A stretch of 64,000 nucleotides of DNA from positions 62,001 to 126,000 of the forward strand of contig MFFN01000002.1 in assembly GCA_001777915.1 (NCBI GenBank), written 5' to 3'. The translations under genes and the position numbers were made by a program. This document shows positions 1-34,200 of the stretch, piece after piece. The notes below the pieces were generated by a model. That model worked only from the letters and a program-made list of their open reading frames with translations. It was not told the DNA's origin and searched no databases. Origin of the DNA: Candidatus Edwardsbacteria bacterium RifOxyA12_full_54_48. Lineage in GTDB: Bacteria; Edwardsbacteria; AC1; EtOH8. Position 1 is the stretch's first letter. Every line of letters starts with the position of its first letter.

Positions 1-44
1 TATTATTTATGCCATATGAAACGGTTATAGGGTTGAATTTAAGC

Positions 45-52
45 AAGGAGGT
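45..52 (+). promoter_or_regulatory. Strong Shine-Dalgarno of the Xre-type gene
   Basis: AAGGAGGT lies only three bases before the ATG at 56, closer than usual. No better in-frame start is visible, so the ATG at 56 is kept. Confidence 0.6.
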
Positions 53-55
53 CAT

Positions 56-427
56 ATGAATGATTTTATCGGGTTGGTTGGAGACAAAGTAAGGAAGCTT
101 CGCAAAGCCCAGGGATTAACCCAGGGACAGCTGGGAGAGAAGGCCGGCTTTGATTATCGGTATATCGGCTTTATCGAACAGGCCCGGGTAAATCCAACAA
201 TCAAGACTCTGGAGAAAGTTGCCAATGCCCTTAAGTTGACGGTGCCGGATTTGTTTCCCGGCAATAAGGAGATTGAGACAGCCAAGAAGGGTGCGCCGGC
301 CAAGGTTGTTGAACGGGAAAAAATAATGTCTAAGATCATGAAAGACTTAAATAAGGTCGATAACAGTAAGCTGAAAAGCATTGCTAAAATTGTAAATATT
401 TCGGCGAGTGGAGAGGGTGTTTCTTGA
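56..427 (+). CDS. Xre/Cro-type helix-turn-helix transcriptional regulator
   Basis: A 123-residue protein with an HTH_3 (Xre/Cro) domain at about residues 8-68: the run VRKLRKAQGLTQGQLGEKAG is followed by a recognition-helix segment and the usual N-P-T-I-K-T-L-E-K-V-A-N-A-L signature. The last 50 residues are a Lys-rich helical tail of unknown role. It is probably a dimeric DNA-binding repressor; its target is unknown. It stands alone and ends in a clear rho-independent terminator. Family assignment is confident, biological role is not. Confidence 0.88.
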   Translation: MNDFIGLVGDKVRKLRKAQGLTQGQLGEKAGFDYRYIGFIEQARVNPTIKTLEKVANALKLTVPDLFPGNKEIETAKKGAPAKVVEREKIMSKIMKDLNKVDNSKLKSIAKIVNISASGEGVS

Positions 428-481
428 GAAATAACCTGAAGCAAGCAATTTTATACGGCAGATAACCGGGCTTTCCAGCAA

Positions 482-507
482 GGCGGGATATAATATCCCG
501 CCTTTTT
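482..507 (+). terminator. Rho-independent terminator after the Xre-type gene
   Basis: Perfect 9-bp inverted repeat GGCGGGATA / TATCCCGCC with a 3-nt loop (TAA), followed by five T. It closes the 56-427 transcription unit. Confidence 0.9.
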
Positions 508-843
508 CCATATAGTGGGATTAACAAAATAGCCTATTGCAAATTGGGAGGTAAATATTGCATTACTATTACTTTGCCGTTATCTACCGAAGCCCTGAGC
601 GGCTGTAATTCCATGTAATTAGAAGGCTTACGAATGTTGCGGAAAGCAACACAAATGGCCTAAAATATGCAAGCGAAGTTATTGGGGGAACGCTAGTTTA
701 TAGGCTGTTTCTTGGCAGTATTTATGGTCTTTGAATATCTCCCATTAGGGATCACAGCCTTGTCGCTTTGTTTGGTTTCCGATTGGTTTAAATAATAAAA
801 TGGCAATTGGAACTAAAACAATAATTGATAAGAGGGGAAATCA
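508..843. other. Intergenic stretch with no recognised feature
   Basis: No credible reading frame, RNA or repeat was recognised in this 336-base gap. It must carry the promoter of the ferritin-like gene, but no consensus -35/-10 pair stands out. The only clear signal is the Shine-Dalgarno AGAGGGG just before 844. Confidence 0.5.
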
Positions 844-1329
844 ATGGAAAATAAGGAGTTGTTGAAAAACATAAAGCAGGCCGTTAAAATGGAGAACGAG
901 GCGGCGCTTTTTTATAAGCATGTTGCCCTGCTCTCTAAAGACATCCGAGCCGGTGAAATGCTGATGCAGTTTTCCCAAGACGAGGAGAAGCACCGAAGAA
1001 TATTGGAATACGTGGTGGAAAGCTACAAACACAACCACGAAAAGTTCGATTTCCCGGACATCGGGCCGCCCCCGGAATCCGGAACGCTTGAAACCAGCCC
1101 GTTATATGCCAAAAAACTGTCGGAATTGACGGGAGAGTCGAAGCCTGTTCTGCTGACATTAAGAGAGTTTATCAAAAAAGAAAATATAGCCATCGCCTTG
1201 TATTCCAAATTATCAGAGAGCAGCCATGATGTAAATATCAGGAAATTCTTCGGCTCCCTGGTCAAATGGGAACAAAGGCACCTGGATCTGCTTGAAAGAC
1301 AGGCAACGGCCTTTGCGGTGAATCGATAG
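844..1329 (+). CDS. Ferritin-like / rubrerythrin-type diiron protein
   Basis: A 161-residue four-helix-bundle protein of the rubrerythrin/ferritin-like class (COG1633 type). Both diiron half-sites are visible: Glu17/Glu19 followed by E47-E-K-H50 in the first half, and KKENIAIALY followed by WEQRH (an ExxH) in the second. There is no C-terminal rubredoxin domain (no CxxC pair), so it is not a classical rubrerythrin. Known relatives handle iron or peroxide in the cytoplasm; the exact reaction cannot be told from sequence. It has its own good ribosome site and seems monocistronic. A bacteriohemerythrin at 10.3 kb is a second diiron protein in the window. Confidence 0.85.
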   Translation: MENKELLKNIKQAVKMENEAALFYKHVALLSKDIRAGEMLMQFSQDEEKHRRILEYVVESYKHNHEKFDFPDIGPPPESGTLETSPLYAKKLSELTGESKPVLLTLREFIKKENIAIALYSKLSESSHDVNIRKFFGSLVKWEQRHLDLLERQATAFAVNR

Positions 1330-1428
1330 TGTCCGGCTTCCTAAGGGGCGATCGTATAAGAGCCGGGCTTTCCCGAATACCCGGCGGTCTGTTAACTGAA
1401 TGTTTTAAATTTTGCCGAGAGGGTTGAT

Positions 1429-1734
1429 ATGGCCAAGAAAGTGCGAAACATCAACGGAACACCGTATAATACCTGTAGTTGCGGGAGCTGGCTGGCGCAT
1501 TGGGAGAAATACAGCGGCCGCATAGCGGTGTATTGTTCCGAAGCCGGCTGTGCCAATCAAGCGGAGGCCGGCGGGCATGTATTGAGGGTGGGAGCCAATG
1601 ATGACAATTGGTATATCATCCCTCTGTGTGCCGAGCACAATTCCCTGACCGGGCGGGCCATCGAAGTGATCGATGCCACCATCTTCGTTCCGGCCAACGT
1701 GGAGGAAACCTGCGGCAGTAAAGGTCAAGGGTAA
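1429..1734 (+). CDS. Small Cys-rich protein, HNH-like zinc fold, function unknown
   Basis: A 101-residue protein with a CxC near residue 17, further Cys at about 36 and 41, and a C-A-E-H-N segment near 67. This spacing is typical of a zinc-bound treble-clef/HNH-like fold. The conserved-looking opening (NTCSCGSWLAHWEKYSG) resembles a widespread uncharacterised bacterial family. Without the full HNH catalytic triad, nuclease activity is not claimed. It is followed after 4 bases by a GIY-YIG-like gene, so the two are probably co-transcribed. Confidence 0.6.
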   Translation: MAKKVRNINGTPYNTCSCGSWLAHWEKYSGRIAVYCSEAGCANQAEAGGHVLRVGANDDNWYIIPLCAEHNSLTGRAIEVIDATIFVPANVEETCGSKGQG

Positions 1735-1738
1735 GAAG

Positions 1739-1951
1739 ATGCGTTATGCGGGATTGACCGACGATCCGGTTCGGCGGAAGCAGGACCATGGCAATTCGTT
1801 CGATTGGCATGTGATCCGTGAATTTGCCACCGAGGATGAAGCCCGGAAGTGGGAGAAAGGCATGCTGCTCCTGGGCTATCAGGGAAGAGCCGGAGGCCGG
1901 GGTTGGAGATACGGGTACACCTACACCATCACCTTATGGACCAGGCAATAG
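1739..1951 (+). CDS. Small GIY-YIG-like protein
   Basis: A 70-residue protein. The start at 1739 was chosen over an upstream in-frame ATG at 1673 because the latter lies inside the preceding gene and the extra residues do not match the fold. The opening MRYAGLTDDPVRRKQDHGN has the layout of a GIY-YIG domain: a Y-x-G-L-T strand, then R-R-K and H. The later E-A-R-K-W-E segment supplies a candidate catalytic Glu. It is short for the family (usually about 80-100 residues), so activity is uncertain. It may act with the upstream Cys-rich protein. Confidence 0.55.
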   Translation: MRYAGLTDDPVRRKQDHGNSFDWHVIREFATEDEARKWEKGMLLLGYQGRAGGRGWRYGYTYTITLWTRQ

Positions 1952-2400
1952 ACGGGCTGCACCGGTCCGATATTGTTATATAAAAGGGCCTGCGGTATCT
2001 TACTAATGCATACGCATTTAATAAATTCTTTACTACTCTATGCTTGGGAGGCCGGCCCAAGCTGGCCTTGATGAATGCCCAGCGATACCATTAATGATAT
2101 CGCTGGTAAACCATCAATGGTCATAAATGGCCATACCGTTATGTCAGTACAATTAATGCGTTTGTATAATGCATACTCCGGGCTTTTTGTTTATCGGCAT
2201 ATCTTGCCAAAATAGGGAGAATGGTTATGGCGGCCTACAAATATCCGGATTTCATCCGGCAGGTATATAACTACGCTTTTGATATTGCCGCCGGACCGGG
2301 CGAGTCGGCGCAAAATTCCGGCATAAACCGGGTGAAGGGGACATTCGGTGGCGGTTGATCGTAGCGACAGACTGATCGTCGTCCCAAGGTTAAATACTAT
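1952..2400. other. Intergenic stretch with small hairpins
   Basis: No gene is supported. It contains short palindromic pieces, such as GCGATA...TATCGC around 2082-2103 and repeated TGGCCAT-like motifs near 2120-2145. None has a T-tract that would make a convincing terminator. Confidence 0.4.
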
Positions 2401-2429
2401 TTGACAATTCTCTTTCAAAAGTATATAGT
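2401..2429 (+). promoter_or_regulatory. Sigma-70-type promoter ahead of the defence block
   Basis: TTGACA (2401-2406), a 17-base spacer, then TATAGT (2424-2429). This is close to consensus and 42 bases before the ATG at 2471. It probably drives the nuclease fragment and perhaps the methyltransferase unit downstream. Confidence 0.7.
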
Positions 2430-2470
2430 TGTTACTAAATAACTCGCAATAATATTTGTAATTTTATTTT

Positions 2471-2728
2471 ATGTCTCAACTCAAAGCCGCCCTCCAGGAA
2501 CTGGCAACACAGGCCAAAGCCAATAAGATCCATAAGATGGCCGAAATGCAGGTGCAGTCCAGCTATGTAGTCAAAGTGTTGGAACTTTTAGGCTGGAGAG
2601 ATAGCGACTGGAAGCTGGGCTCCGGCCAGGGTGTAAACACCGGCAAATTTCCGGACATCAGCCTGCATGACAGGAACAAGCATACCGTGCTGGTGGTGGA
2701 ATGCCCGCCGCAGGTGCCGAAATGGTGA
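2471..2728 (+). pseudogene. Truncated restriction-type endonuclease N-terminus
   Basis: The 85-codon frame starts like the N-terminal nuclease domain of HsdR/type IIG-like restriction proteins: LLGWRDSDWKLGSGQG, then GKFPDISL (the PD part), then TVLVVEC. In PD-(D/E)xK nucleases the last strand continues as E-x-K. Here it reads E-C-P, because a 21-bp tandem repeat array begins at that codon and brings a stop at 2728. All downstream domains are missing. The most economical reading is a broken gene disrupted by the array. A functional short peptide cannot be excluded but seems unlikely. Confidence 0.6.
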
Positions 2729-2834
2729 TCACAAGGAGTGCGAAGCCCACCGCAGGCGCGGAAATGCTCTTCCCGGGTGTTGAAATGCTCTTCACAGGTA
2801 GTGCGAAGTGCTCCGCAGGCGTGGAAATGTTGAC
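2709..2834. repeat. Six-unit 21-bp tandem repeat array
   Basis: Six contiguous degenerate 21-base units start at 2709, 2730, 2751, 2772, 2793 and 2814. Two alternating styles occur: CGCAGG(C/T)G..GAAATG and CACA(A/G)G.AGTGCGAAG. There are no spacers, so this is a minisatellite, not a CRISPR. On the minus strand it gives an open 7-residue repeat rich in Cys, Gly and His, most likely fortuitous. It replaces the catalytic end of the upstream nuclease fragment and lies 40 bases before the methyltransferase. Confidence 0.85.
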
Positions 2835-2874
2835 CCCGCAACTGTACAAATTATAAAACAATCGATTAAAAATC

Positions 2875-4095
2875 ATGGCAAACAGTAATCTTACAAACGC
2901 AAAAAGGGCAAAGAACGACGAGTTCTATACACAGTACGATGATATTCAAAAAGAGATTGAAGCATATCTGGAATACAACCCCAAGGTGTTCAAAGGCAAG
3001 ACAGTGTATTGTAACTGCGATGATCCGTTCGAGAGCAATTTTTTTCGTTATTTCGTGCTAAATTTCGATAAGCTTAGACTGAAACAACTTATCACTACCA
3101 GCTATAAGCCATCACCAGTGGCCAACACGCAACTGGAGTTAATAGGCGTTGATAAAACTCACACAAAATCAAAAGGCCGACCCAAAATAACCGCCAATAA
3201 ATTTATTATCAACGAAGTTCAAGACATAGATGGCGACGGCGAATTCAACTTGAAGGATGTTGCCAAGCAGTTAAAGGCAAACAAACACAACGAATGGACA
3301 CCGATAAACGGCGACGGCGACTTTCGTAGCGATGAATGTATAAAGCTGCTGAAACAATCTGATATCGTAGTAACAAATCCTCCGTTTTCGTTGTTTCGCG
3401 AATATGTTAAACAGCTTTTTGATTATAATAAAAAGTTTGTGATTATTGGCAACTTGAATGCGATTACCTACAAAGAAGTTTTTCAAAAGATTAAGGAAAA
3501 CAAGATGTGGTTGGGGCCAAGTATCTCTAGTGGCGATCGTGAGTTTCAAGTTCCAGATAGTTATCCAATTACTGCTGCTGGGTGGAGAGTAAATGATGAA
3601 GGGAAAATATTTTTACGCATAAAAGGTGTCCGTTGGTTCACCAACCTTGACCACGGTAGAAGACACCAACCCCTAAAACCTATGTCAATGAAAGACAATT
3701 TAAGATTTAACAAAAAACTGAAAGGTAAAGAATTTTATGACCGCTATGACAACTACGATGCTATAGAAGTTCCATTTACTGATGCCATTCCGAGCGATTA
3801 CAAAGGCGTAATGGGGGTGCCGATTAGTTTTTTGGATAAATATAATCCTGATCAATTTGAAATAGTAGGCTTGACTTCAGGCAGAGATGAGTTTGAATGT
3901 CGGCCCTCCAAAAAATATATAAACCCAACCCAACATAACACAGATGGTAGTGTAATTAATGGGAGTAAATCCAACACTCGTGCAACTATTAAACTTGATA
4001 AAGTGCCAGCAGATATTTATTACACCGCAGACAATGCAGATGGACCCCTTTTAATCGTTTATGCTAGAATCTTAATTAAACACAAGAAGAAGTAA
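2875..4095 (+). CDS. EcoRI-family adenine-specific DNA methyltransferase
   Basis: A 406-residue protein of the M.EcoRI-type N6-adenine methyltransferase family. The N-terminus [20 protein letters not shown] and the [17 protein letters not shown] segment are typical of that family. The catalytic NPPF motif is at residues 168-171, preceded by DIVVTN. It should methylate adenine in a short DNA site to protect it from a partner nuclease. The next gene, a DUF262-HNH protein, begins one base after its stop, so the pair is probably translated together. Base composition is more AT-rich than the flanks, in keeping with horizontal acquisition. Confidence 0.9.
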
Positions 4096-4096
4096 C

Positions 4097-5266
4097 ATGA
4101 AAACAACATTAAAAACAGACATTACTGTCAAAGATATTTGCGAAGGGTTCGTCTATAACGAACTGGAGGGCAAGGGGCTTTTCGGCCTGTCCGGCAAGCT
4201 GACAATCCAGCCGGAATACCAGCGTAATTATATCTATGCTTCCGACGGCGGCAAAAAAGAAGTGGCCGTCATCGAATCCCTACTCAAAGAGTACCCGCTA
4301 GGTTTGATATATTTTAACAAAGTAAGCGATGAAAAACTGGAAGTCTTGGACGGTCAACAGCGCATTACCAGTTTCGGGCGCTTTATCGCTGGGAAATTTG
4401 CCATCAAAGATGACGATGGGAATGAGCAATATTTCAGTGGCATGGCAAAGGACAAGCAAACTAGAATATTGAAAACAAAACTGACCATTTACGAATGCGA
4501 GGGCAAGGAAAGCGAAATAAAGGAGTGGTTCAAGACAATCAACATTGCCGGGGTCCCGCTCAATGAGCAGGAGCTTTTGAATGCAATATATTCTGGTCCG
4601 TTTGTGACGCTCGGCAAGGCAGAGTTCAGTAACAGTCAAAATGCCAACATTCAGAAATGGAGCGCCTATGTAAAAGGCAGCGCCAATCGTCAGGATTTTA
4701 TGGAAAGGGCTTTGGATTGGGTGAGCAAGGGCAATATCAGTGACTATATGAGCCAGCATCGCAAGGATGAAAACATCAACGAGCTTAAAACATACTTCAA
4801 TAGCGTTATTGAATGGGCGTCTAGCGTATTTAAAGATGTCCAAAGGGAGATGTGTGGTATTGAGTGGGGACGGCTGTATGAAGAGTATCATAAAAAATCG
4901 TATAACCCTGCTAAAGTATCAGCAGAAGCCCAGGAGCTTTACGCTGACCCATATATCAAAAACCGAAAGGGAATCTTTGAGTATATACTTGGGGGTTCCG
5001 TAGATACAAAATTGCTGGAGGTCCGGGTCTTTGATGAGGCAACCAAGAAAACTGTTTACGCAGCACAGACTAAAAAGGCTGAAACCAAAGGAAAATCAAA
5101 CTGCCCACTTTGTGCAGTGGGGCATGATGCCAACAAGAGCAAGATATGGAAATTAGACGAAATGGATGCCGACCATGTAACAGCATGGAGCAAGGGTGGC
5201 GGTACAAATGCCAAGAACTGTCAAATGTTGTGTAAGACCCATAATAGAGCAAAAGGGAATCGATAA
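4097..5266 (+). CDS. DUF262-HNH putative endonuclease
   Basis: A 389-residue protein. The N-terminal DUF262 (ParB/GmrS-like) domain is at about residues 10-220 with its D-G-Q-Q-R motif at 85-89. The C-terminal HNH domain is at about 336-389: C336-x2-C339, D-A-D-H360, Asn374, C375-x3-C379 and H382. The DUF262 motif is known in GmrSD-like modification-dependent enzymes, where it binds or hydrolyses nucleotide, and the HNH would cut DNA. It sits one base after the EcoRI-family methyltransferase, so it is likely the nuclease of this restriction-modification unit. Whether it cuts unmodified or modified DNA cannot be told from sequence. Confidence 0.85.
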
Positions 5267-5417
5267 TTTAACATTGAAATCTCAAAGCGTATTTTCATCA
5301 TAGGCCAAATGTACTGCGGGTGTTCGGTGGCCGGGGCCATGCCAAAGACCTAAGCGGTGTTCGCCCTGGTGATGACGTTTATTATGAAATAATTGTGTAT
5401 AGCGTATTTAAAAGAAA

Positions 5418-7778
5418 ATGATAACAAAAATAACAAAACTCAAGAATTTCGGCATATTTCACGACTATTCTTGGACAGCGGGCTTCCCCGAATTCAAGAA
5501 GTATAATTTGATATATGGCTGGAATAGAAGTGGGAAAACTACAATTGCGCGTGTTTTTGCGAGTTGTGAGAAAAAATGTATTTATGACAAGGATAAATTT
5601 AAACAGTATCCGGAAAATGGGGAATTTGAAATTAAGACAGACGATGGTGTAATTGTTAATAATACAAATGTTACTACTAACATCTTATCAATAAAAGTTT
5701 TCAATCAAGATTTTATTGATGAGCACATTTCTTTTAACCCAGCAGAGTCGTGTGCACCTATTTTTTATCAAAGTAAAGAAGATTACGAGTCTGAAAAACG
5801 ACTTACCCAACTTAAGCTAGATAAAATTACGTTTGGCAAAACATACGAAGAAGCTAAGAAAACTAAGTTAGCAAAGGAAGAAACGAAGAACACCTTTTTG
5901 ACTGGTTTGGGAAGGGAAATTGCGAATATTCTCTTTGATAAGAACTACAATAAAAAGAAGGTGGAGAGCAATATAAACACTATCGGGATTGATAATTATT
6001 CAGGCAAGATTCTTTCTGATGAAGACAAGAAAAAATACGAAGCAATAAGTAAAAGCACAGCCGGCGTAGTTCAAAACCCCCTTGCTGATTATCAATTCTC
6101 ATTTCCATTTGAGGGGGTAATTGTTAATAGTTTTCAAATGTTGTTCGATGAGGTTAATAAACTGCTTAGCAAAAATGTTATTTCCGAAACGTTGGATAGA
6201 TTAAAAGACGATCATAGTTTAAACAATTGGGTTAAGCAGGGATATGATTTACACAAGGCCAAAAACGAAAAAGGCAAATGTTTGTTTTGCCAAAAACCAC
6301 TTGATAATGACTTCTTAAATTCTCTTTCAAGGCATTTCAGTAAAGATTATGAGGATTTACAAAATACGATTAGTTATTTAAGAAACGATATTATAAAAAT
6401 AAAGAAAAATGAATTTGCTTTGAAAAACGACGATCTTTACCCCGACTTAAAGGTTAACTACGAGACAAAAGCAAAGGAATTAAATGAATGTATTGGGAAA
6501 ATAAATGCTTGGATTGATGGGGTTTTAAAGAAATTAGAAGAAAAGCACAATAATCCGCTGTCTGTCGTCATAAATTCCAAAACACCAGAAGACTTTTTGA
6601 CTTCATATAATCAAATTATTGAGGAACTTAATAAAATTATCACGGATCATAATGAGAAAGTAATCAATCATGATAAGGAAGTAACAAAAGCAAGAGATAA
6701 ATTGGAGCTTAATTCAATTGCCGCTGCTTTGTCTGAACAAGATTATAAAAAGATGGTAAACGACTACATAGAAGCAGCGAGAAATGAAGATGTAGCACTT
6801 AAGGCATTAAATAATAATGACTCTGAAATATTAGACTTGGAAAAACAGACTTCAAATATCGGCAATGCAATTAATGAAATAAACAAACATTTAAAGGAAT
6901 TTTTTGGAAGAGAAGAAATAAAGCTTGCACTAGACGCAGATAAAAAAGGTTATACTATAGAAAGAAATGGACATCCTGCGATAAATTTGAGTGAGTGTGA
7001 GAAAACGGCAATCGCTTTTTCGTATTTTGTTGTAAAGATTGGTGAGGGTTCCTTTGATAAATCAAAGGGGGTTGTTTTTATTGATGATCCGATTTCCAGT
7101 TTTGATTCAAATTTTATCTATCATTGTTTCTCAATGATAAGCACACATTTCAAAGAAGTGGGCCAACTTTTCATTTCCACTCATAATTTTCAGCTTTTTA
7201 ATCTTACCAAAGACTGGTTTATAAATAAAAACAATACGACAAAGAGAGATAACGAAAAAGCAAGGGCGGAAAGTAAGGTGGGAAAACCAATCCCTTGCGA
7301 ATATTTTATGGTAGAGAATTTTACTGAATCAGATATCCGAAAAGCAAAAATTGTCGAACTTGATAGAACGCTTCGCAATTATAAATCTGAATATCATTTT
7401 TTATTTGCCAAACTCAAAGAGTTTTCAGATAAACCTAATACCGAGTACGAGGACTTTTATACAATTGGTAATATGGCAAGGAGATTATTTGATATATTCG
7501 CAGACTTTAAGATACCAACAACAGGAGATCAGAAATCTAAAATGGATGTGTTGCTCAATAATATCAATGTGCCGGATGAAAAGATAAGCAAAATAGATGC
7601 TGGCAAAGCATACAAATTAGTTAACGAGTTTTCACACAACTCAGACCCAACGAGCACAATAGAACACAAAGATAAAAGTGAAAGTAAAGAAGCTATAAAA
7701 GTACTTTTGAATATTATAAAAGAGTCAGATCCAAAGCATTATGAAATATTGTTGAAAATACTTCACTCTAAGAGCTAA
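5418..7778 (+). CDS. AAA_13 ATPase with zinc-hook CxxC (RloC-like)
   Basis: A 786-residue SMC/Rad50-like ATPase. Walker A is G34-W-N-R-S-G-K-T41, and a long charged coiled coil is interrupted by a CxxC (Cys288, Cys291), the mark of a zinc hook. Walker B with D556-D557 lies in VVFIDDPISSFDS, and the switch His589 in STHN. RloC and PrrC anticodon nucleases share this ATPase family. However, the classic R-x3-E...H nuclease triad is not obvious in the C-terminus, which instead has SEYHFLF and NMARRLFDIF segments and a possible R653-x6-H660. The gene is strongly AT-rich, follows a restriction-modification pair, and its TAA overlaps the ATG of a DUF2971 gene. An anti-phage role is likely; the effector reaction is unknown. 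Confidence 0.8.
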   Translation: MITKITKLKNFGIFHDYSWTAGFPEFKKYNLIYGWNRSGKTTIARVFASCEKKCIYDKDKFKQYPENGEFEIKTDDGVIVNNTNVTTNILSIKVFNQDFIDEHISFNPAESCAPIFYQSKEDYESEKRLTQLKLDKITFGKTYEEAKKTKLAKEETKNTFLTGLGREIANILFDKNYNKKKVESNINTIGIDNYSGKILSDEDKKKYEAISKSTAGVVQNPLADYQFSFPFEGVIVNSFQMLFDEVNKLLSKNVISETLDRLKDDHSLNNWVKQGYDLHKAKNEKGKCLFCQKPLDNDFLNSLSRHFSKDYEDLQNTISYLRNDIIKIKKNEFALKNDDLYPDLKVNYETKAKELNECIGKINAWIDGVLKKLEEKHNNPLSVVINSKTPEDFLTSYNQIIEELNKIITDHNEKVINHDKEVTKARDKLELNSIAAALSEQDYKKMVNDYIEAARNEDVALKALNNNDSEILDLEKQTSNIGNAINEINKHLKEFFGREEIKLALDADKKGYTIERNGHPAINLSECEKTAIAFSYFVVKIGEGSFDKSKGVVFIDDPISSFDSNFIYHCFSMISTHFKEVGQLFISTHNFQLFNLTKDWFINKNNTTKRDNEKARAESKVGKPIPCEYFMVENFTESDIRKAKIVELDRTLRNYKSEYHFLFAKLKEFSDKPNTEYEDFYTIGNMARRLFDIFADFKIPTTGDQKSKMDVLLNNINVPDEKISKIDAGKAYKLVNEFSHNSDPTSTIEHKDKSESKEAIKVLLNIIKESDPKHYEILLKILHSKS

Positions 7779-8521
7779 TGTGTCTGATGTCGGAAAAACC
7801 TAAATATCTTTATAAATACCATCAAATGAATCTTCATCTGATGGAGATGTTGACTAATGCAAAATTTTATATGTCAAAAAGGTCAGATTTAAATGATCCT
7901 TTAGATTCAACATTCGCAATTAGTTTAGAAAGCTATTTAAAACTATATTATGAGAAATATCCATCTTTAAAAAGTAATAAAGAACATGTAGAACTTGTTT
8001 CCTCAATCTTTAAATCTGAAATTGAACGTGGAGAAAGTTCTTGGATAAACACAATAGATGAATTATACTCTAAACTAAGAGTTAGTTGTTTTACAGAAGA
8101 TGGGAATAATCCATTAATGTGGTCACATTATGCACAAAACCATACAGGTGTTTGTCTAAAATTTGAGTTATCTAAGGACCCAAATTTAGAAAAAGCCATA
8201 AACCCTGTTTCGTATATAGATGAGTTCATCGACATTAACGGTGCAGAAGATTTTCGTAAGTGTTTATTGTCAAAGGTTAAAACTTGGAGTGTCGAGAAGG
8301 AATGGAGAATAATATCCGAAAAAGAAAGATTCCCATTTAAGCAAGAGGCATTAATACAAATTATATTTGGGCTAAAGGTGCCAGATTCAACATTGACTTG
8401 GTTTACACAATTTAGAGAAAATGTATATTATATGCATGCTCCAATATATAGATTAAAGGTAAGAAAAAATAAATTAATATTAATTGATGAGTGGGACGAA
8501 GTTGTTGTAGATGATTTGTAA
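7778..8521 (+). CDS. DUF2971 family protein
   Basis: A 247-residue protein with the DUF2971 layout: LYKYH near the N-terminus, SDLNDPLDSTF at about 37-47, then CFTEDGNNPLMWSHYAQNHTGVCL in the middle and W-S-V-E-K-E-W-R-I near residue 175. The family has no settled biochemical function. The start overlaps the ATPase stop by one base (TAATG), so the pair is translationally coupled and probably one functional unit. A second in-frame ATG three codons later (7787) is also possible. The gene is as AT-rich as the ATPase gene, suggesting joint arrival. Confidence 0.8.
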   Translation: MCLMSEKPKYLYKYHQMNLHLMEMLTNAKFYMSKRSDLNDPLDSTFAISLESYLKLYYEKYPSLKSNKEHVELVSSIFKSEIERGESSWINTIDELYSKLRVSCFTEDGNNPLMWSHYAQNHTGVCLKFELSKDPNLEKAINPVSYIDEFIDINGAEDFRKCLLSKVKTWSVEKEWRIISEKERFPFKQEALIQIIFGLKVPDSTLTWFTQFRENVYYMHAPIYRLKVRKNKLILIDEWDEVVVDDL

Positions 8522-8660
8522 ATAAATTCTGTCAAATAGTTGCCAATAATAGTCCAAAAAAACGTAGGCAGTTTGGTCTTCAATATTTGGTAACTAAATA
8601 ACAGCGAAAGTTACAGCTATAACGAACAATTATCAGGTTGGAAAATACTGAACGATTTAT

Positions 8661-8894
8661 TTGAATAGAGGCCCATCTCTGTACCCGCTGCCAAATTCAA
8701 CCCGCAATACCGGCAAGCCCTGGACCCCGCAAACAGTGGCACAACTAAAAGACTCGGCCAACCATAATACCCCCACCAGGGTAATAGGTCTAAAACTTGG
8801 CAGAACGGCGGAGGCCGTAGCTTCAAAAGCAAGCGAAAAGGGCATATCATTAAAACCCAACAACCAAAGACCGTATAACCGCACCAAGAAATAA
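8661..8894 (+). CDS. Small conserved hypothetical protein
   Basis: A 77-residue basic protein. The core runs from RNTGKPWTPQTVAQLKDSA through TPTRVIGLKLGRTAEAV to SLKPNNQRPYNR, a pattern I recognise from a short, widespread uncharacterised family with a predicted helix-turn-helix-like core. The only plausible in-frame start is TTG 8661 (or ATT 8655), because a stop lies just upstream. No strong ribosome site is seen. Function unknown; DNA binding is a guess from its Lys/Arg content. Confidence 0.5.
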   Translation: MNRGPSLYPLPNSTRNTGKPWTPQTVAQLKDSANHNTPTRVIGLKLGRTAEAVASKASEKGISLKPNNQRPYNRTKK

Positions 8895-8970
8895 AGCCCT
8901 GGCTGCTACCGTGCTTTTAAAAGCAGACAAAAGGAACCATACAATAAACAGTAAGCTAAGGAACCGAATC

Positions 8971-9345
8971 ATGGCTTCTCAGACGGTAAAATTCGAATAC
9001 AATGAAAGTAAAAACATCCTTTTCGTCGAGGATGATTATGTGATCAACTCAGAGGGTGAGGTTGACGCATTTTTAAAATTATACGCTGATAAGTTCAAAG
9101 TGATCGGCCGGAAGGTGCGCCTGGTTGCCTGCATAGACGGTTTGAAGATCAATCACAAGGTCCAGGATTATTACGGGGAACAGGTCAAAAAGCTTCTGGA
9201 CGGGACGATCATTTGCTTCGCCCGGTACGGCAGGGACCCGATGTCCAGGATGAACGTGCGTACATCATCCCGCAAGGTCAATTTTGATATAAACATTTAT
9301 GACACCAAGGAACAGGCAATAGAGGCGGTCGAGAGAATAAAGTGA
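8971..9345 (+). CDS. SpoIIAA/STAS-like small protein (first of two)
   Basis: A 124-residue alpha/beta protein. The ATG at 8971 (ahead of MASQTVKFEY) was chosen over a start at 8911 because AAGGAA lies just upstream of it. The alternation of strands (NILFVEDDYV, KVRLVACIDG, GTIICFARYG, VNFDINIYD) and helices fits a SpoIIAA/STAS-like fold, as in SEC14/STAS-like stress proteins. A phosphorylatable Ser cannot be named with confidence. It opens a short run of signalling genes that ends with a hybrid kinase at 13,470. Fold assignment is moderate; role unknown. Confidence 0.6.
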   Translation: MASQTVKFEYNESKNILFVEDDYVINSEGEVDAFLKLYADKFKVIGRKVRLVACIDGLKINHKVQDYYGEQVKKLLDGTIICFARYGRDPMSRMNVRTSSRKVNFDINIYDTKEQAIEAVERIK

Positions 9346-9387
9346 AACCCGAGCATTTCTTTTTAAAACAAAGTTGGAGGATGAATC

Positions 9388-9762
9388 ATGGATCTTGATT
9401 ATAAAATCTGGACCGATCTCGTCAAGAACCGGTTGTATTTGGTGATCAAAGGCTCCATCTCGGATGAAACGGCCAAAGCCGCGGCCGATAAGACCATGCA
9501 GGAGGCCAAAAAACTGCAATCCGGTTTCACCGTAATAACCGATATCTCCCAGGCCCATCCCACCGGCTCCAAAGGCGGTATCGAGATCAAACGGGCTCAG
9601 GCTTTTTTGGGATATATGGGAGTAAAGCGTATCATCCAGGTCATACCACGATCCGATAGCGGGGCGGCCCAACAGCAGGGAAACCCGCCGCAGGGATATT
9701 CTGCCGTCAATACGGCATCTTCGATAGAGGAGGGCGACGCCATATTGGACAGATCGGCATAA
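9388..9762 (+). CDS. SpoIIAA/STAS-like small protein (second of two)
   Basis: A 124-residue protein with the same strand-helix order as its upstream neighbour: NRLYLVIKGSIS, then a helix, SGFTVITDISQAHPTG, a helix, and VKRIIQVIPRS. This suggests two tandem SpoIIAA/STAS-like proteins of the same length. The segment VITDISQA resembles the strand before the phospho-Ser in anti-sigma antagonists. It has a good ribosome site (GGAGGATGAATC then ATG). It may act as a partner-switch element with the adjacent hybrid kinase; this is inference. Confidence 0.6.
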   Translation: MDLDYKIWTDLVKNRLYLVIKGSISDETAKAAADKTMQEAKKLQSGFTVITDISQAHPTGSKGGIEIKRAQAFLGYMGVKRIIQVIPRSDSGAAQQQGNPPQGYSAVNTASSIEEGDAILDRSA

Positions 9763-9800
9763 GCCGGTATCAAACCATAATTATGAAGGAGGGAACCAAA

Positions 9801-10001
9801 ATGTGGACTCCGATCATAGGCCGTAATGCGGGCGCTTTATGGAAGGTCCTTAATGCCAAGGGGGAACATAATCTCAGCGCCCTGAAAAAACAGGCCAAGC
9901 TGGACGACAAACAGCTTTACCTGGCCCTGGGCTGGCTGGCCCGGGAGGATAAGATAAAATTCACCCAAAATAAAAACCAGATCACAATTTCCCTGAAATA
10001 A
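9801..10001 (+). CDS. Small winged-helix protein (DUF2582-like)
   Basis: A 66-residue protein. The start at 9801 is set by AAGGAGGG at 9786-9793; an ATG at 9783 would precede that site. The sequence GALWKVLNAKGEHNLSALKKQ, then DDKQLYLALGWLAREDKIKF, then an ITISL strand matches the small winged helix-turn-helix family PF10771. Those proteins are presumed DNA-binding or protein-interaction modules. It is embedded in the SpoIIAA-like/hemerythrin/kinase operon. Confidence 0.7.
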   Translation: MWTPIIGRNAGALWKVLNAKGEHNLSALKKQAKLDDKQLYLALGWLAREDKIKFTQNKNQITISLK

Positions 10002-10019
10002 CCTTATGGAGCCTTTAAT

Positions 10020-10319
10020 ATGTACGCTACGGTAATTACCGAACGGGAGAGACAGCTGGGTTTCGTTGTGGCTGAAATGCCCCATCCCAAAAACCAGTAT
10101 TTGGCCGAGCCGGAAATAGTATCCGCAGTACTGTTCAGACTGGACGAAAATAATGTGGTTACCAAGGTTATTGACCCGGTAGGCGGGTATCGTTATTATC
10201 ATAAGCATCGGCTGGAGGACGGCTGGGTAACAGTCAGCAATGTTGAAGTAGAACCCCAGGAGGCCATCTTAAAGACCAGGGAATATCTTTCCAGCCACAA
10301 GGCAACGGAGATTTGCTGA
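10020..10319 (+). CDS. Hypothetical protein of the hemerythrin operon
   Basis: A 99-residue soluble protein with no family I recognise. It has alternating strands (YATVITERERQLGFVVAEM, VVTKVIDPVGGYRYYHKHR) and a C-terminal helix, and no signal peptide. Its stop is separated by one base from the bacteriohemerythrin start, so the two are co-transcribed. Its place between a winged-helix gene and an O2-binding protein suggests a signalling or redox accessory role, but nothing in the sequence shows it. Confidence 0.6.
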   Translation: MYATVITERERQLGFVVAEMPHPKNQYLAEPEIVSAVLFRLDENNVVTKVIDPVGGYRYYHKHRLEDGWVTVSNVEVEPQEAILKTREYLSSHKATEIC

Positions 10320-10320
10320 C

Positions 10321-10728
10321 ATGACGTTGATAAAATGGGCCGACCAATACAAGGTAAATATCGAGGAAATAGACGAGCAGCATATAAAATTGATTGATCT
10401 GGTCAATAAACTATATACTGCCCTGAAAAACGGAGGGGCCAGGGTCATTTTGGCTGGAATTTTGACCGAGATGATGGATTATGCCGAATATCATTTCGAA
10501 ACGGAGGAAACATTGTTCGGGCTTCATCTGTACCCCGAGACCATGCATCATATTCAGGAACATAATATGTTCAAGAAAACCATTATTTCCTTGAAGGAAA
10601 AGCACGAAAATGAAGATTATTCTGCCAGCATAGAAACCATGTGTTTTCTTAGGGAATGGCTGAAGAAACATATACTGGATGAAGATAAAAAGTATGCGCC
10701 CTTTTTCATCGGCAAGGGGGTGTGTTAA
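10321..10728 (+). CDS. Bacteriohemerythrin
   Basis: A 135-residue single-domain hemerythrin. The diiron ligands are visible in order: His in IDEQH (about 21), His and Glu in YHFETEE (about 58-62), the His cluster in MHHIQEH, and His and Asp in KKHILDED near 120. Known bacteriohemerythrins bind O2 (sometimes NO) reversibly in the cytoplasm. It begins one base after the preceding stop and lies about 50 bases before a hybrid kinase gene. This makes an oxygen- or redox-linked signalling unit plausible. Confidence 0.92.
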   Translation: MTLIKWADQYKVNIEEIDEQHIKLIDLVNKLYTALKNGGARVILAGILTEMMDYAEYHFETEETLFGLHLYPETMHHIQEHNMFKKTIISLKEKHENEDYSASIETMCFLREWLKKHILDEDKKYAPFFIGKGVC

Positions 10729-10779
10729 AACACCTTTTGAACCAGACCGTTCAGGTTGAGGCGGCGACGGGAGCAGGCA

Positions 10780-13470
10780 ATGTGGAATAAAACCCCAAAA
10801 AGAACCCGGCGGGAATTGTTTTATATGACAGGCTTTCTGGCCGTCATTATTTTATTCATTACCGCAGGGGCGACGCTATTTTATGCAAGGCAGAGCCGTG
10901 CCCTGGCGGAGGAACAAAAGGAAAATCTTTCGGCGATAGCGGACCTGAAATCATCCCTGATAGAGTCATGGTATCAGGAGCGCATCAATAACGCCTGGGG
11001 AATTGCCGACAGCCGTTCGTTTGCGGAAGCCACGGCCGGATGGTTCGAAAATCCGAAGGACGGACGGTTGAAAGAGGCGGTAGCCACACGCCTGAGATCA
11101 TTGCTCCGCTACAATCAATACGAAGCCATTCTTTTACTAAAGCCCGACGGCACGGTAATGATGGCGATCAACGATACATCCAAGCATGTCGGCCCCAAAG
11201 TAACCGGTTTTATAACCCAGGCCCTTGGCTCGGGCCGGGTTTTGACCAGCGATCTTTACTACTGTCCCGAAGCCAAACGTCCGCATATGGATTTTGTTGC
11301 GCCGATTGCATATCAAGGCAGGCGGACGGGGGCTTTGATCCTCCGGGTCGATCCCAGCAGGTTTTTTTATCCCCTTATTCGGAGTTGGCCGGCCCCCAGC
11401 CGCACTTCGGAGACCCTGCTGGTCAGGCAGGAGGGAGATTCGGTGCTTTTTTTGAATGACGTCCGGCATCGTGAAAATACCGCCCTGAAAATGAAAGAGC
11501 CCCTGACCGACACCAAGCTTCCGGCGGTGATGGCGGTAACCGGCAGGACCGGAACGGTCGAGGGATATGATTATCGGGGCCAGCCGGTTCTGGCGGCCTT
11601 GAGGAAGATATCCGGTACTTCATGGTTCATGGTTTCCAAGGTCGATGCCGAAGAGGTGTATGCCCCCGTAAAAAAACTTTTCATTACGGTAGCCTTGCTG
11701 GCCTTTTTTCTAACCGGGGTGGCGGCCGCAGCGGTGGTCATTGTTTGGTATCAGCGCAGGAACCAATATCTGGAATCGTTAATGTCGGCCGAGGCGCAGC
11801 TTAAGGAATCCAATACAAATCTTTTGGATAGCAACCAGGAGTTGGCGGCGACGGTGGAGGAATTGACGGCATCCGAACAGCAACTTAAGGCGGCCGAGGA
11901 GGAACTGCATCAGCAGCTGGATGATTTAACCAGAAACCAGGTGGAATTACTCCAAAGCAAACAACAGTTCCAGCTTCTGGCCGACAGTGCGCCGGATGCC
12001 ATTTTCATACAGATTGACGGGAAATATGCTTATGTCAACAAAGCCTGTCTGTCTCTTTACGGGGCGAAAAGACCGGAGCAGCTGATAGACAGCCCGATTA
12101 TCGAACGAATTCATCCCGATTTTCAGGAAATGGTTACTGAGAGAATCAGGACGATTAACCGGGAAAAGAGTGATCTTCCCGCGGTTGAATATAAGCACCT
12201 TAAACTGGATGGGACTCCGGTTGACGTCGAGGTTTCGGTAGTGCCCTTCGAGTACCAGGGGGATAACGGTGCATTGGTGTTCATGCGGGATGTTACCGAG
12301 CGCAGAAAGATCGAGCAGGAATTGCGGCACTCCCAAAAAATTGAGGCTATTGGTCTATTGGCCGGGGGTATTGCCCACGATTTCAATAATATGCTGGCCG
12401 GCATCATCGGCAATGTAGAATTGTTGGCTATGAAGCTGTTGGGAAATCGGGAATTATCCGCTTATGTCAATAATATTGCCAATGCCGCCGATCATGCGGC
12501 AACCCTCACCCGGCAATTGCTTACTTTCGCCAGAAAAGGGCGAGTGATATGGCAGCCAACCGACATCCACAATTTGATAGACGATACCTGCGGGATCTTG
12601 GAAAAAACCATTGATCGCCGCATAACGGTGAACCGTCAATTGGATGCTGTGCTGCCGGCAGTAAACGGTGATCCGTCCCAGCTGGAAAATATGTTATTAA
12701 ATCTCGGAGTGAATGCCAGGGATGCTATGCCCGAAGGCGGTTTGCTTACCTTTTCCACCCGCGATGAGGTGTTGAATAGCGATTTTATAAAAAACCATGG
12801 CTATCAGATAGAGCCAGGGAAGTACTTGCTTATATCGATATCCGATACCGGTGATGGGATGGATAATAATACATTAAAACATATATTTGAACCGTTTTTT
12901 ACAACAAAGGATCCCGGGAAAGGCACCGGCTTAGGATTGGCCAGCGTATATGGGACGATCATGAATCATAAAGGAGCGATAGAGGTTAAAAGCGAACCGG
13001 GGAAAGGGGCTCTATTCAATATCTGGCTTCCTTCAGTAATGAGCGTGGCACCTGAAAAAAAGGCTGCGGGACCCTTGGCGGATGATCTAACCGGCCAGGG
13101 CCGGATTTTGCTGGTAGATGATGAGGAAATGGTTCGGGAGGCGGCTCAAAATCTACTTAAGCACCTCGGGTACGAGGTATACACTTGTTCCGATGGCGCA
13201 GAGGCGGTAGGATTTTATGGCGAGCACCAGAACGAGATCGACCTGGTGATCATGGATATGATTATGCCTGTGATGAACGGTATGGATGCTTTTATCAAGC
13301 TTAAAAAAATCAATCCGAAAGTAAAGGTGCTGATTTCATCGGGCTTTAGCGCGGGGCGGGATTCAGATGAATTGTTTAAATTGGGGCTCAAGGGTTATTT
13401 AGGCAAGCCGTATCATTTGGCTGATCTGGCTGCGAAAATAAAGAAGGTTATAAATGAAGAGCCAGGCTGA
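10780..13470 (+). CDS. Membrane hybrid sensor kinase (sensor-PAS-HisKA-ATPase-receiver)
   Basis: An 896-residue protein; the ATG at 10780 (preceded by GGGAG) is preferred over an in-frame TTG at 10756. Order: membrane helix about 15-37, extracytoplasmic sensor to about 300, second helix about 305-330, coiled coil to about 400, PAS about 400-515. The HisKA phosphoacceptor is H533 in GGIAHDFNN. The ATPase has an N-box (LGVNARDAM), DTGDGMD and GKGTGLGL, and the C-terminal receiver carries D826 (VIMDMIMP). The sensor domain is clearly paralogous to that of the kinase at 31,277, sharing [11 protein letters not shown] and DYRG blocks. It probably closes the hemerythrin operon. Confidence 0.92.
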   Translation: MWNKTPKRTRRELFYMTGFLAVIILFITAGATLFYARQSRALAEEQKENLSAIADLKSSLIESWYQERINNAWGIADSRSFAEATAGWFENPKDGRLKEAVATRLRSLLRYNQYEAILLLKPDGTVMMAINDTSKHVGPKVTGFITQALGSGRVLTSDLYYCPEAKRPHMDFVAPIAYQGRRTGALILRVDPSRFFYPLIRSWPAPSRTSETLLVRQEGDSVLFLNDVRHRENTALKMKEPLTDTKLPAVMAVTGRTGTVEGYDYRGQPVLAALRKISGTSWFMVSKVDAEEVYAPVKKLFITVALLAFFLTGVAAAAVVIVWYQRRNQYLESLMSAEAQLKESNTNLLDSNQELAATVEELTASEQQLKAAEEELHQQLDDLTRNQVELLQSKQQFQLLADSAPDAIFIQIDGKYAYVNKACLSLYGAKRPEQLIDSPIIERIHPDFQEMVTERIRTINREKSDLPAVEYKHLKLDGTPVDVEVSVVPFEYQGDNGALVFMRDVTERRKIEQELRHSQKIEAIGLLAGGIAHDFNNMLAGIIGNVELLAMKLLGNRELSAYVNNIANAADHAATLTRQLLTFARKGRVIWQPTDIHNLIDDTCGILEKTIDRRITVNRQLDAVLPAVNGDPSQLENMLLNLGVNARDAMPEGGLLTFSTRDEVLNSDFIKNHGYQIEPGKYLLISISDTGDGMDNNTLKHIFEPFFTTKDPGKGTGLGLASVYGTIMNHKGAIEVKSEPGKGALFNIWLPSVMSVAPEKKAAGPLADDLTGQGRILLVDDEEMVREAAQNLLKHLGYEVYTCSDGAEAVGFYGEHQNEIDLVIMDMIMPVMNGMDAFIKLKKINPKVKVLISSGFSAGRDSDELFKLGLKGYLGKPYHLADLAAKIKKVINEEPG

Positions 13471-31276: not shown

Positions 31277-34200
31277 ATGGTGTCCGAAAAAAACAAGGCA
31301 TATCCCAGGGGGCTGATATTCGCAGCCCTGATACTATTCATTGCCCTGGGCGCTGGCCTTTATTTTCTGCTTCATTCTCATGCCGAGGAGCACAAACGGG
31401 AGAAAATTGCCGAACTGCAGGCGGCCCTGGATTATAAAATGGCCCAGATCGACCACTGGATCAAGGCTCAATCTGCCAATGCCAGCCTTATATCCGACAG
31501 CCCGTTCCTGGGCCAGGCGGTGCAGCGATGGCGGGAGAACCCGGGCGATGTAAAACTGCGGGCGTCCATTCGATCGCGTCTCAATGGCTGGCAGGAACAT
31601 TTCGGCTATTCCGACGTGCTGCTGGCAGATCAAAACGGAAACATCCTGCTGGAGGCCGATGGCACGGTGGACGTGCTGTCCCCGGAGACCAAGGCCTATC
31701 TGCAAAAGGCCCTGGCCGAGGGCAAGCACCTGTTGGCCGATTTCTATATGTGCACAGTCCATAATACGCCCCACATAGACGTCATCGCTCCGATCAACAC
31801 CGGGGCCAGGGGAAAAGCGGGAAAATCGGCGGTAATTCTCCGGGTCTCTCCCGGGGATTATCTGTACCCCTTGATGAAGAACAATGCTTTTCAGGGCCTG
31901 ACCTTCGAAACCCTTTTGATACGCCGGGACGGCGATTCGGTGCTGTTTTTGAACGATGTCCGGTTCGCCCAGGACGCCGCCCTAAAACTAAAGATCTCCC
32001 TGTCTGAAAAAGATGTCCCGGCGGTCAGGGCGGTGCTGGAGGGGAGGACGGTGGGTGAGGGAAGGGATTACCGGGGGCAAAAAGTGCTGGCTGTTACCGG
32101 AGCCCTGGCCCGATCCAGCTGGTTTATGGTGGCCAAAATTGACCTGCAGGAGGTCAATGACGCCAATCGGGCCAATGCCTTGATCTGGAGCCTGGCCGCC
32201 CTGCTGATCTTTGCCGGCTCCGTCTCGGTTCTGAGCATCTTATTCCTTAACCAGCGCAAGGATTATTTCAAAAAACTCTACGCCCTGGAGAATGAGCGGC
32301 AAGCCCTGGTAAAGCATTTCGATTATTTAACAAAATACGCCAACGACATCATTTTTTTGATCGACGATAGTCTCAAGGTGGCGGAGATAAACGACCGGGC
32401 GTTGGATATCTACGGCTACACCCGGGAAGAATTCATTGGAATGGAAGCCGATCGGTTGAGAGCCGACGACCAAAAAGCGCTGTTCAAAACACAAATGAGC
32501 CAACTGGTGCTTCAAAAAGGCCTGATCTACGAGACCATGCACCGGCGCCAGGACGGCACCACCTTCCCGGTGGAGATCAGCGCCCGGTCCATTGAAATAG
32601 AGGGCAAAAAATACCTGCAGGCCATCGTCCGGGACATTACCGAGCGCCGGCTATTCGAGCAGAAGATTCAGGAACGCAACGAGGAACTGGAGTCCGCCAA
32701 CCAGGAACTGCTGGCCGCCGAGGAAGAACTGAGGCAGAGCAACGAAAAGCTGGAGAGCAATTATGCCGAGCTGGAGTCGGCCAATGTGGAACTCAAGTCC
32801 GCCGAGGAGGGACTTCAGCACAATCTGGAAGAAATCCAAATAACCAAAAAGCGCTATACCGAGCTGTTCCAGGGCATCAACAGCGGGGTGGCGGTTTACC
32901 GGGCGGTGGACGACGGAAACGATTTCGTGTTCGTGGATTTCAACCGGGCCGGGCAGAGGATAGAGAAAACATCGGCCGACCAGGTGATCGGCCGGAAAGT
33001 GACCGAGGTCTTTCCGGGAATAAAACCCATGGGGCTGCTGGAGGTGTTCCAGCGGGTGTGGCGGACCGGGAAAGCGGAGCAGCACCCGGTGTCGGTTTAC
33101 CAGGATGAACACCTGACCGGCTGGAGGGAGAATTATGTTTACAAACTGCCGGACGGGGAGGTGGTATCCATCTACGATGACATGACCGAGATCAAGCAGG
33201 TCGAAGAATCATTAAAAGCCTCGGAAACCCGCTACCGCCGGCTGTTTGAATCGGCTAAGGACGGGATATTGATCCTGAACGCCGATAGCGGCATCATCGA
33301 TGACGCCAACCCCTTCATCAAGGACCTGCTGGGGTATCCCCGCGAGGAACTGATCGGCAAGGAACTTTGGGAGATCGGCCTGTTCCGGGACATCGTGGCC
33401 AGCCGCGACAGCTTCATGGAACTGCAGAAAAAGGGGTACGTCCGGTACGAGGACCTGCCGCTGGTGACCAAGAACGGCCTGAAGAAAGAGGTGGAATTTG
33501 TCAGCAATGTTTATCCGGTGGGCGACCACAATGTGGTTCAGTGCAACATCCGGGACATCACCCAGCGCAAACTGGCCGAGGTTAAGCTGCGGGAAAGCGA
33601 AATAAGTTATCGGACCTTGGCCGATTCCGGCCAAGCTCTGGTCTGGACCGCCGGAACCGACAAGTTATGCAACTATTTCAATAAAGTCTGGCTGAAGTTC
33701 ACCGGCCGCCCATTGGAACAGGAGCTGGGCAACGGCTGGGCCGAAGGAGTGCATCCGGATGATCTGCAGTATTGCCTGGAAATATATACCAACGCCTTTG
33801 ACCGGCGGGAACCCTTCAGCATGGAATACCGCCTGCGCCGCCACGATGGGGAATACCGCTGGTTGCGGGATGATGGGAGCCCGCGTTATAACGGCGCCGG
33901 CGAGTTTGTCGGGTATATCGGCCATTGTTTGGACATCACCGGGCACAAGCAGGCGGAGGAACAGATCAAGGACTCCCTGAAAGAGAAAGAAATCCTGCTC
34001 AAGGAGATCCACCACCGGGTGAAAAACAACCTGCAGATAATAGTCAGTCTGCTGAACCTGCAGACCGGATACGTGGAGGATCCGCGTTATAAGAAGATGT
34101 TCCTGGAGAGCCAGAACCGGGTGCGCTCCATGGCCCTGGTCCATGAAAAACTTTACCAGTCCAAGGGCCTGGCCGGCATAGATTTTTCCGAATACGTCAA

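Follow-up and report, generated by a model that had tools for sequence, protein, structure and literature searches.

Introduction

Defence genes in bacteria cluster and turn over fast, and how an island holds its place has mostly been described through core genes, phages and integrases. The gene of a small basic protein adjoining repeats of about two helical turns is familiar from plasmid iterons and par centromeres. Two further systems come close to the locus described here. In BrickBuilt, a minisatellite-MITE of Porphyromonas gingivalis, a 23-nt unit of one sequence is described together with a leader, a tail and inverted-repeat ends (PMC4596501). In RptR, for which binding was measured, the sites are three 9-bp repeats in the protein's own promoter, upstream of the rptR gene (PMC12255303).

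Here, we examine a 64,000-nt stretch of Candidatus Edwardsbacteria DNA (the window; G000:C2:62001-126000 of a 2.74-Mb genome), compared within a set of ten genomes of the phylum, all from one family. At one point in the window, what is left of a type IIG-like restriction gene (its 78 5' codons), together with the promoter-like region ahead of it, runs into an array of 21-bp units that precedes a methyltransferase/GmrSD-HNH system.

Results

A restriction gene is truncated at the edge of a 21-bp array

The junction comprises the following features.

2401–2429, forward strand: sigma-70-like promoter (TTGACA-17-TATAGT, by position and spacing) ahead of the truncated gene
2471–2704, forward strand: codons 1–78, the PD-ExK N-terminal part, of a restriction-methylation gene of type IIG-like kind, by homology to G002
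2471–2728, forward strand: truncated reading frame of 85 aa, from reading of the ORF
2698–2704, forward strand: junction microhomology GGAATGC, resembling the unit ends GAAATGC, by direct reading
2704–2829, forward strand: six degenerate 21-bp units, an orphan array without a leader, by lag-21 scoring and direct reading

The 78-codon stub shares 86% amino-acid identity with an intact 988-aa protein of G002 and 60–73% with six other long homologs, and its assignment to the type IIG family rests on this homology to full-length members. Intact relatives are open over 969–1067 aa at seven places in G001, G002, G003, G006 and G008 and carry an N-terminal PD-ExK motif and an NPPY methylase region in one chain; the lost gene would have encoded about 990 aa. 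All six aligned intact relatives read VVECK, whereas the window frame ends in VVEC-PPQVPKW-stop, such that the PD-ExK lysine (K79) is a proline and the methylase region is missing. DNA identity with the intact G002 gene extends to GTGGTGGAATGC and ceases exactly at 2704. Comparison with intact relatives, which the original prediction had proposed, thus bears out its claim of a nuclease cut off at the E-x-K lysine. Its further claim that the remainder of the enzyme is gone also holds: a whole-genome search with the full G002 protein returned only the stub and one distant relative on another contig (40% and 27% identity).

Two origins had been suggested for this junction. Insertion of a mobile minisatellite that silenced the nuclease is not supported, as no downstream half of the gene exists. 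A deletion scar fits an array that starts where the gene is cut off and a gene whose remainder is gone, and it is the best reading of the sequence because the junction falls on GGAATGC, which resembles the GAAATGC that closes the units. The simplest history would be a deletion between the IIG gene and an array already standing before the methyltransferase.

The array itself is weak yet well above chance. Within 2702–2834, lag 21 yields 56 matches in 112 positions (50% identity), and the local peak of 56/105 compares with maxima of 41–47 in 30 first-order Markov sequences of 64 kb each. An equal score occurs at only one other place in the window (32646–32844), which resembles a coiled-coil coding stretch, and the array is absent from Tandem Repeats Finder output at score 40. 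The six units predicted at the truncation point are therefore real, and a degenerate seventh stretch follows them, with the methyltransferase start codon 45 bases 3' of the array end. The proposed alternation of two unit styles holds only in part: the order reads A B A C B A, but across six family arrays the unit next after one ending in GCGAAG is of the CCGCAGG..GGAAATG style in five of six cases, and the sixth, in G006:C101, is interrupted. The window also contains a 120-bp tandem repeat at 38794–39224, by its consensus probably within a TPR protein gene.

A search of the genome for the same unit, as had been advised, places the array at this site and nowhere else, and a pattern for two adjacent units gave no match in the genome contigs database. 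The array has no leader and no dyad, its folding is unremarkable (z +1.0 versus column-permuted controls), and Rfam gave no match in window positions 1–12000. Dyads in its own array family likewise fail the column-permutation control at 0.05 (fractions 0.88 and 1.00).

The downstream operon appears to be an old partnership

Beyond the array lie four genes, and the locus is bounded by two flanks shared with G003.

2875–4095, forward strand: intact EcoRI-type adenine methyltransferase (PF13651, E 4.4e-131)
4097–5266, forward strand: GmrSD_N (DUF262)-HNH protein (PF03235, PF01844; PADLOC REase_II, E 4.7e-81)
5418–7778, forward strand: AAA_13 ATPase, defence-associated (PDC-S06), by domain and PADLOC matches
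7778–8521, forward strand: DUF2971 protein, defence-associated (PDC-S31), by domain and PADLOC matches
56–2013, forward strand: left syntenic flank, 84% identical in G003
8942–11916, forward strand: right syntenic flank, 87% identical in G003

The methyltransferase is found in two of the ten genomes searched, and the GmrSD-HNH gene adjoins it in both. An intact methyltransferase with an adjacent nuclease-type partner, conserved as a pair, is the make-up of a type II restriction-modification system, and the GmrSD_N-HNH protein is likely the restriction partner. It had been suggested that the methyltransferase was left over from the lost nuclease and then paired with the DUF262-HNH protein. This does not agree with the lost IIG enzyme having had its own methylase (NPPY), nor with G006:C56, where the same two genes are adjacent and the 16-kb stretch read contains no IIG gene. 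Because of this second occurrence, the pair is likely an old partnership rather than one formed in rescue once the IIG nuclease had been lost. In G006:C56 the pair has further genes for company, and two genes that by eye resemble those of V-type ATPase subunits A and B enclose the set; at L196 8949–12030, genes of this appearance flank the methyltransferase, the GmrSD-HNH gene, a gene for a small helical protein (H243, see below) and a 21-bp array.

The G003 ortholog retains the promoter-like hexamers of the truncated gene, and the gene content between stub and right flank differs from that of the window. Its IIG stub does not share the short protein of the window: it is shorter still, at 26 codons, and at GGGATGC it runs on into the 3' end of another gene, which encodes a small helical protein and resembles the one at L030 12050–12439, itself the neighbour of the L030 array. 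Behind this fusion lie a hydrolase-like ORF, an unassigned ORF and a 1108-aa P-loop ORF (named by eye). As stub length, fusion partner and downstream genes all differ, the locus by its sequence is rearranged in both genomes, the IIG start being kept and what follows replaced. Separately, a MITE-like element of about 170 bp at window 2006–2175 is missing from the G003 ortholog; its two ends match (ATGCATACGCATTTAAT / ATTAATGCGTTTGTATAATGCAT), and it is predicted to fold into a long hairpin (-55.5 kcal/mol).

Relatives of the window array carry a leader

Relatives of the window array occur in G006, G007 and G008, and weakly in G005. Five family copies in G006, G007 and G008 have in common a leader of about 70 bp that is absent in the window. 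In each, leader and array stand between an upstream gene and a downstream gene on the same strand, which differs from place to place.

G006:C22: leader and array, then a IIG gene
G006:C108: leader and array, then Cas12f (PADLOC, E 1.7e-149)
G008:C136: leader and array, then an Mrr-type nuclease
G007:C11: leader and array, then a DUF2130-OLD-HsdM set (DUF2130 by eye)
G006:C101: leader and array, then TPR genes

At one junction, between ptsI and an aminotransferase gene, the two genes are uninterrupted in six of ten genomes (G000–G005), G008 has leader, array and Mrr gene between them (names by eye), and three other genomes have different ORFs there. By eye, the leader contains no clear pair of sigma-70 signals, and the right flanks of the family arrays differ. 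At L035 12868–14677, a Cas12f gene stands right behind leader and 21-bp array.

Arrays recur directly 3' of genes for small basic proteins

Several arrays in Candidatus Edwardsbacteria start just past genes for small helical proteins, which are multicopy and which we call H genes. Searches with two of these proteins led to further loci. Arrays of unrelated 21-bp units recur directly 3' of these genes, and defence genes often begin just beyond. With an array defined by a lag-21 score of ≥47/84 within 600 nt of the gene, 19 of 26 H genes have one downstream, as opposed to 6 of 1251 controls; in two of these six, the control gene lies ahead of an H gene. Upstream, the count is 1/26, and one H248 gene (L038) has its array there instead; lags other than 21 are at background in the 26. 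Since eight of the H genes had been reached via arrays or the IIG search, the non-circular set is the 18 found by protein search alone, and 13 of these have arrays. Among the seven without an array within 600 nt, two have one at 558–648 nt, one ends near a contig end and two are fragments. Two candidates were left out of the 26: L162, a 32-aa match, and L163, the second piece of L180. In the window and G000:C2:40001-64000, five profiles found no H gene; the pairing seen at 19 H loci is absent there and the window array is an orphan. An intact H117 gene at L170 7014–7379 has no 21-bp array and a CCAGA pentamer run upstream; it shares 84% DNA identity, up to the stop codon, with one in another genus.

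Profiles unite three H groups, with the H117 profile matching H122 at 7e-6 and H248 at 1e-4. A further group, H243, lies beside the G006 methyltransferase pair with an array scoring 61/84. It has three relatives in IMG/VR contigs (35–43% identical), all three with an array directly downstream whose top lag is 21 or 42 (lag-21 scores of 58, 67 and 47; lag-42 scores of 77, 62 and 56). If these contigs come from Bacteroidota, which is a guess, H gene and array would occur together in more than one phylum. Plasmid and phage searches returned no H relatives, and viral contigs none of H239 or H117.

All 27 H proteins computed are basic (pI 9.3–10.2). The H groups scanned correspond to no named family in Pfam, NCBIfam or PHROGs (weak single matches, with library coverage varying by group), and none has a close PDB sequence. 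The H243 model, built from three sequences, is helical (pLDDT 87), and Foldseek found nothing significantly like it in PDB or BFVD. H239 folded alone gave a poor model (pLDDT 51). Among the papers that literature searches listed, titles and abstract openings gave no account of 21-bp arrays 3' of helical-protein genes.

Unrelated arrays share a period of 21 bp

Neighbouring loci contain quite different units with the same 21-bp period, which corresponds to two helical turns. In 270,518 bases of array- and nuclease-selected sequence plus the window, lag 21 is found at 15 places and lags 20 and 22 at none. The arrays examined were selected at lag 21, and their neighbouring lags are at background. 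A sample chosen by place (81 stretches, 1,649,022 bases) avoids this selection: outside coding sequence, lag 21 leads with five places over lags 12 and 18 with two each, and lags 19, 20, 22 and 23 have none. By eye, two of the five (L077, L108) are 7-bp repeats, and L074 was masked as coding.

Dyads exceed column-permuted controls (0.05) in only 11 of 21 arrays. Folding beyond such controls (z below -1.65) is seen for 10 of 25 arrays in sense and 11 of 25 in antisense orientation, and this equality of strands favours DNA over a strand-specific RNA. The dyad argument does not extend to the window array, because its own family is without dyads. We also considered that the arrays encode a 7-residue repeat and set this aside: some arrays have open frames, yet by our own arithmetic chance alone leaves a given frame of a 21-bp unit open in about 7 of 10 cases.

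Homology ends at the array in two orthologous pairs of H loci

Two orthologous pairs of H loci were compared, L060 (G000) with L165 (G003) and L031 (G006) with L032 (G007). In the first pair, homology spans the H gene and array and ends at about the array's far edge; the genomes become syntenic again after 9 kb in G000 and 6.5 kb in G003. The G003 block contains a gene for a GajB-like helicase and, by eye, an NTPase gene and a methylase-like gene, and the G000 block a Cas3c-led CRISPR-Cas set with a CRISPR array (type I-C by eye).

This Cas3c-led locus, its CRISPR array included, occupies L060 14536–20000 and extends into L217; on one side of it stands the H117 array, and on the other synteny with G003 returns.

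In the second pair, about 10 kb of upstream homology ends at the array, behind which lies a IIG gene in L031 and a DUF2130-OLD-HsdM set in L032. A duplicate pair within G006 (L169/L172) has in common just the H gene, some 300 nt and the array. Conversely, G006 and G002 carry IIG genes that are 86% identical in DNA, each behind an array unrelated to the other. When ten proteins downstream of nine H loci were scanned with PADLOC, defence matches appeared at five (L165, L166, L167 with Hachiman, L171 and, weakly, L178) and at none of the other four; the scan covered neither earlier-known loci nor L172, L174, L175, L176, L179 and L180.

One array is itself orthologous between G000 and G003. It is identical at 200/231 positions (86.6%) with its unit order kept, and the sequence on either side aligns poorly. 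Its GAACGGG arm is identical at 70/73 positions versus 130/158 elsewhere (Fisher P 0.0035, for columns picked after seeing the data).

Discussion

In its most cautious form, our description of the window is a restriction-gene stub joined by a deletion scar to an orphan array of the 21-bp class, with a restriction-modification operon that looks complete following behind. We propose further that the junction formed by deletion at the 7-bp microhomology, and that H gene and array constitute one element. The array would be a multi-site DNA docking track for the basic H protein encoded next door, and also an edge, beyond which defence genes may be exchanged by recombination while H gene and array remain in place. 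The window would have lost its H gene and array leader along with the rest of the IIG gene, leaving the array as an orphan 5' leader of the restriction operon, probably transcribed from the captured IIG promoter. We regard this composite reading, of deletion and of an orphaned docking-and-exchange-edge element, as evenly poised between right and wrong. That H gene and array form an undescribed element beyond one lineage, with private two-turn sites that anchor the edge of a defence island and maybe also control genes, is a tentative extension that we would sooner doubt than assert.

The arrays could instead be plain minisatellites with a leader, non-autonomous mobile elements resembling BrickBuilt, whose link to H and defence genes reflects safe intergenic landing sites. 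The conserved leader of the window's family at five dispersed places speaks for this, as does the ptsI-aminotransferase junction, contiguous in most genomes and occupied by leader, array and Mrr gene in G008; in the P. gingivalis element, too, 23-nt tandem units come with a leader and a tail (PMC4596501). Most of the arrays, however, share only their 21-bp period and no unit sequence, their placement at H genes is one-sided (19/26 downstream versus 1/26 upstream), unit order is kept between species in the orthologous array, and inspection by eye found no tail or terminal inverted repeats. We consider a mobile minisatellite unlikely, though a serious contender. Conservation of the orthologous array also weighs against regarding stub and array as a functionless, decaying remnant, with the fixed period produced by slippage in open reading frames (7 codons). 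The window array is indeed degenerate, with half its positions matching at lag 21, and unique in its genome, as such decay would predict; the lead of lag 21 in non-coding, unselected sequence (five places, two of them 7-bp repeats, versus two each for lags 12 and 18) runs against it, and we hold decay to be very doubtful.

Arrays lying mostly between an H gene and a same-strand next gene could also act as RNA, as the 3' tail of the H mRNA or the leader of the downstream operon, with the H protein, basic as it is, binding the repeat RNA. The repeat RNAs of type III toxin-antitoxin systems offer a loose parallel. Sense folding is nevertheless no stronger than antisense folding (10/25 versus 11/25 arrays), and Rfam is silent over the first 12 kb of the window, which makes an RNA element quite improbable in our estimation. 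If the docking-and-exchange-edge reading is correct, a repeat element whose geometry is fixed and which has a protein of its own, placed at an island edge, would be a new handle on defence-gene exchange, bearing on how and where such genes are exchanged and perhaps switched on.

Comparison with known systems

The window gene differs from type IIG enzymes in extent, as relatives keep the N-terminal PD-ExK and NPPY over 969–1067 aa and it keeps 78 codons. Some loci resemble CRISPR in having leader and repeats beside cas genes (L035 with Cas12f, L060 with Cas3c); unlike CRISPR arrays, the 21-bp units stand back to back without constant-length spacers, and the L060 locus has a separate true CRISPR array apart from the 21-bp array. 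In contrast to plasmid iterons and par centromeres, H-linked arrays are chromosomal and many per genome. With RptR they have in common a small helical-protein gene beside short palindromic repeats next to restriction-modification genes, there a type I island (PMC12255303). They differ in that the H gene is followed, on its 3' side, by mostly 5–16 units of 21 bp, to which H binding is putative. BrickBuilt is likewise an intergenic, spacerless tandem array with a conserved leader, as at five of our loci, and with dispersed copies within one lineage; the arrays here have units of 21 bp rather than 23 nt, with many unrelated sequences, and are linked to H genes and defence blocks, whereas the account of BrickBuilt, so far as consulted here, names no linked protein gene (PMC4596501).
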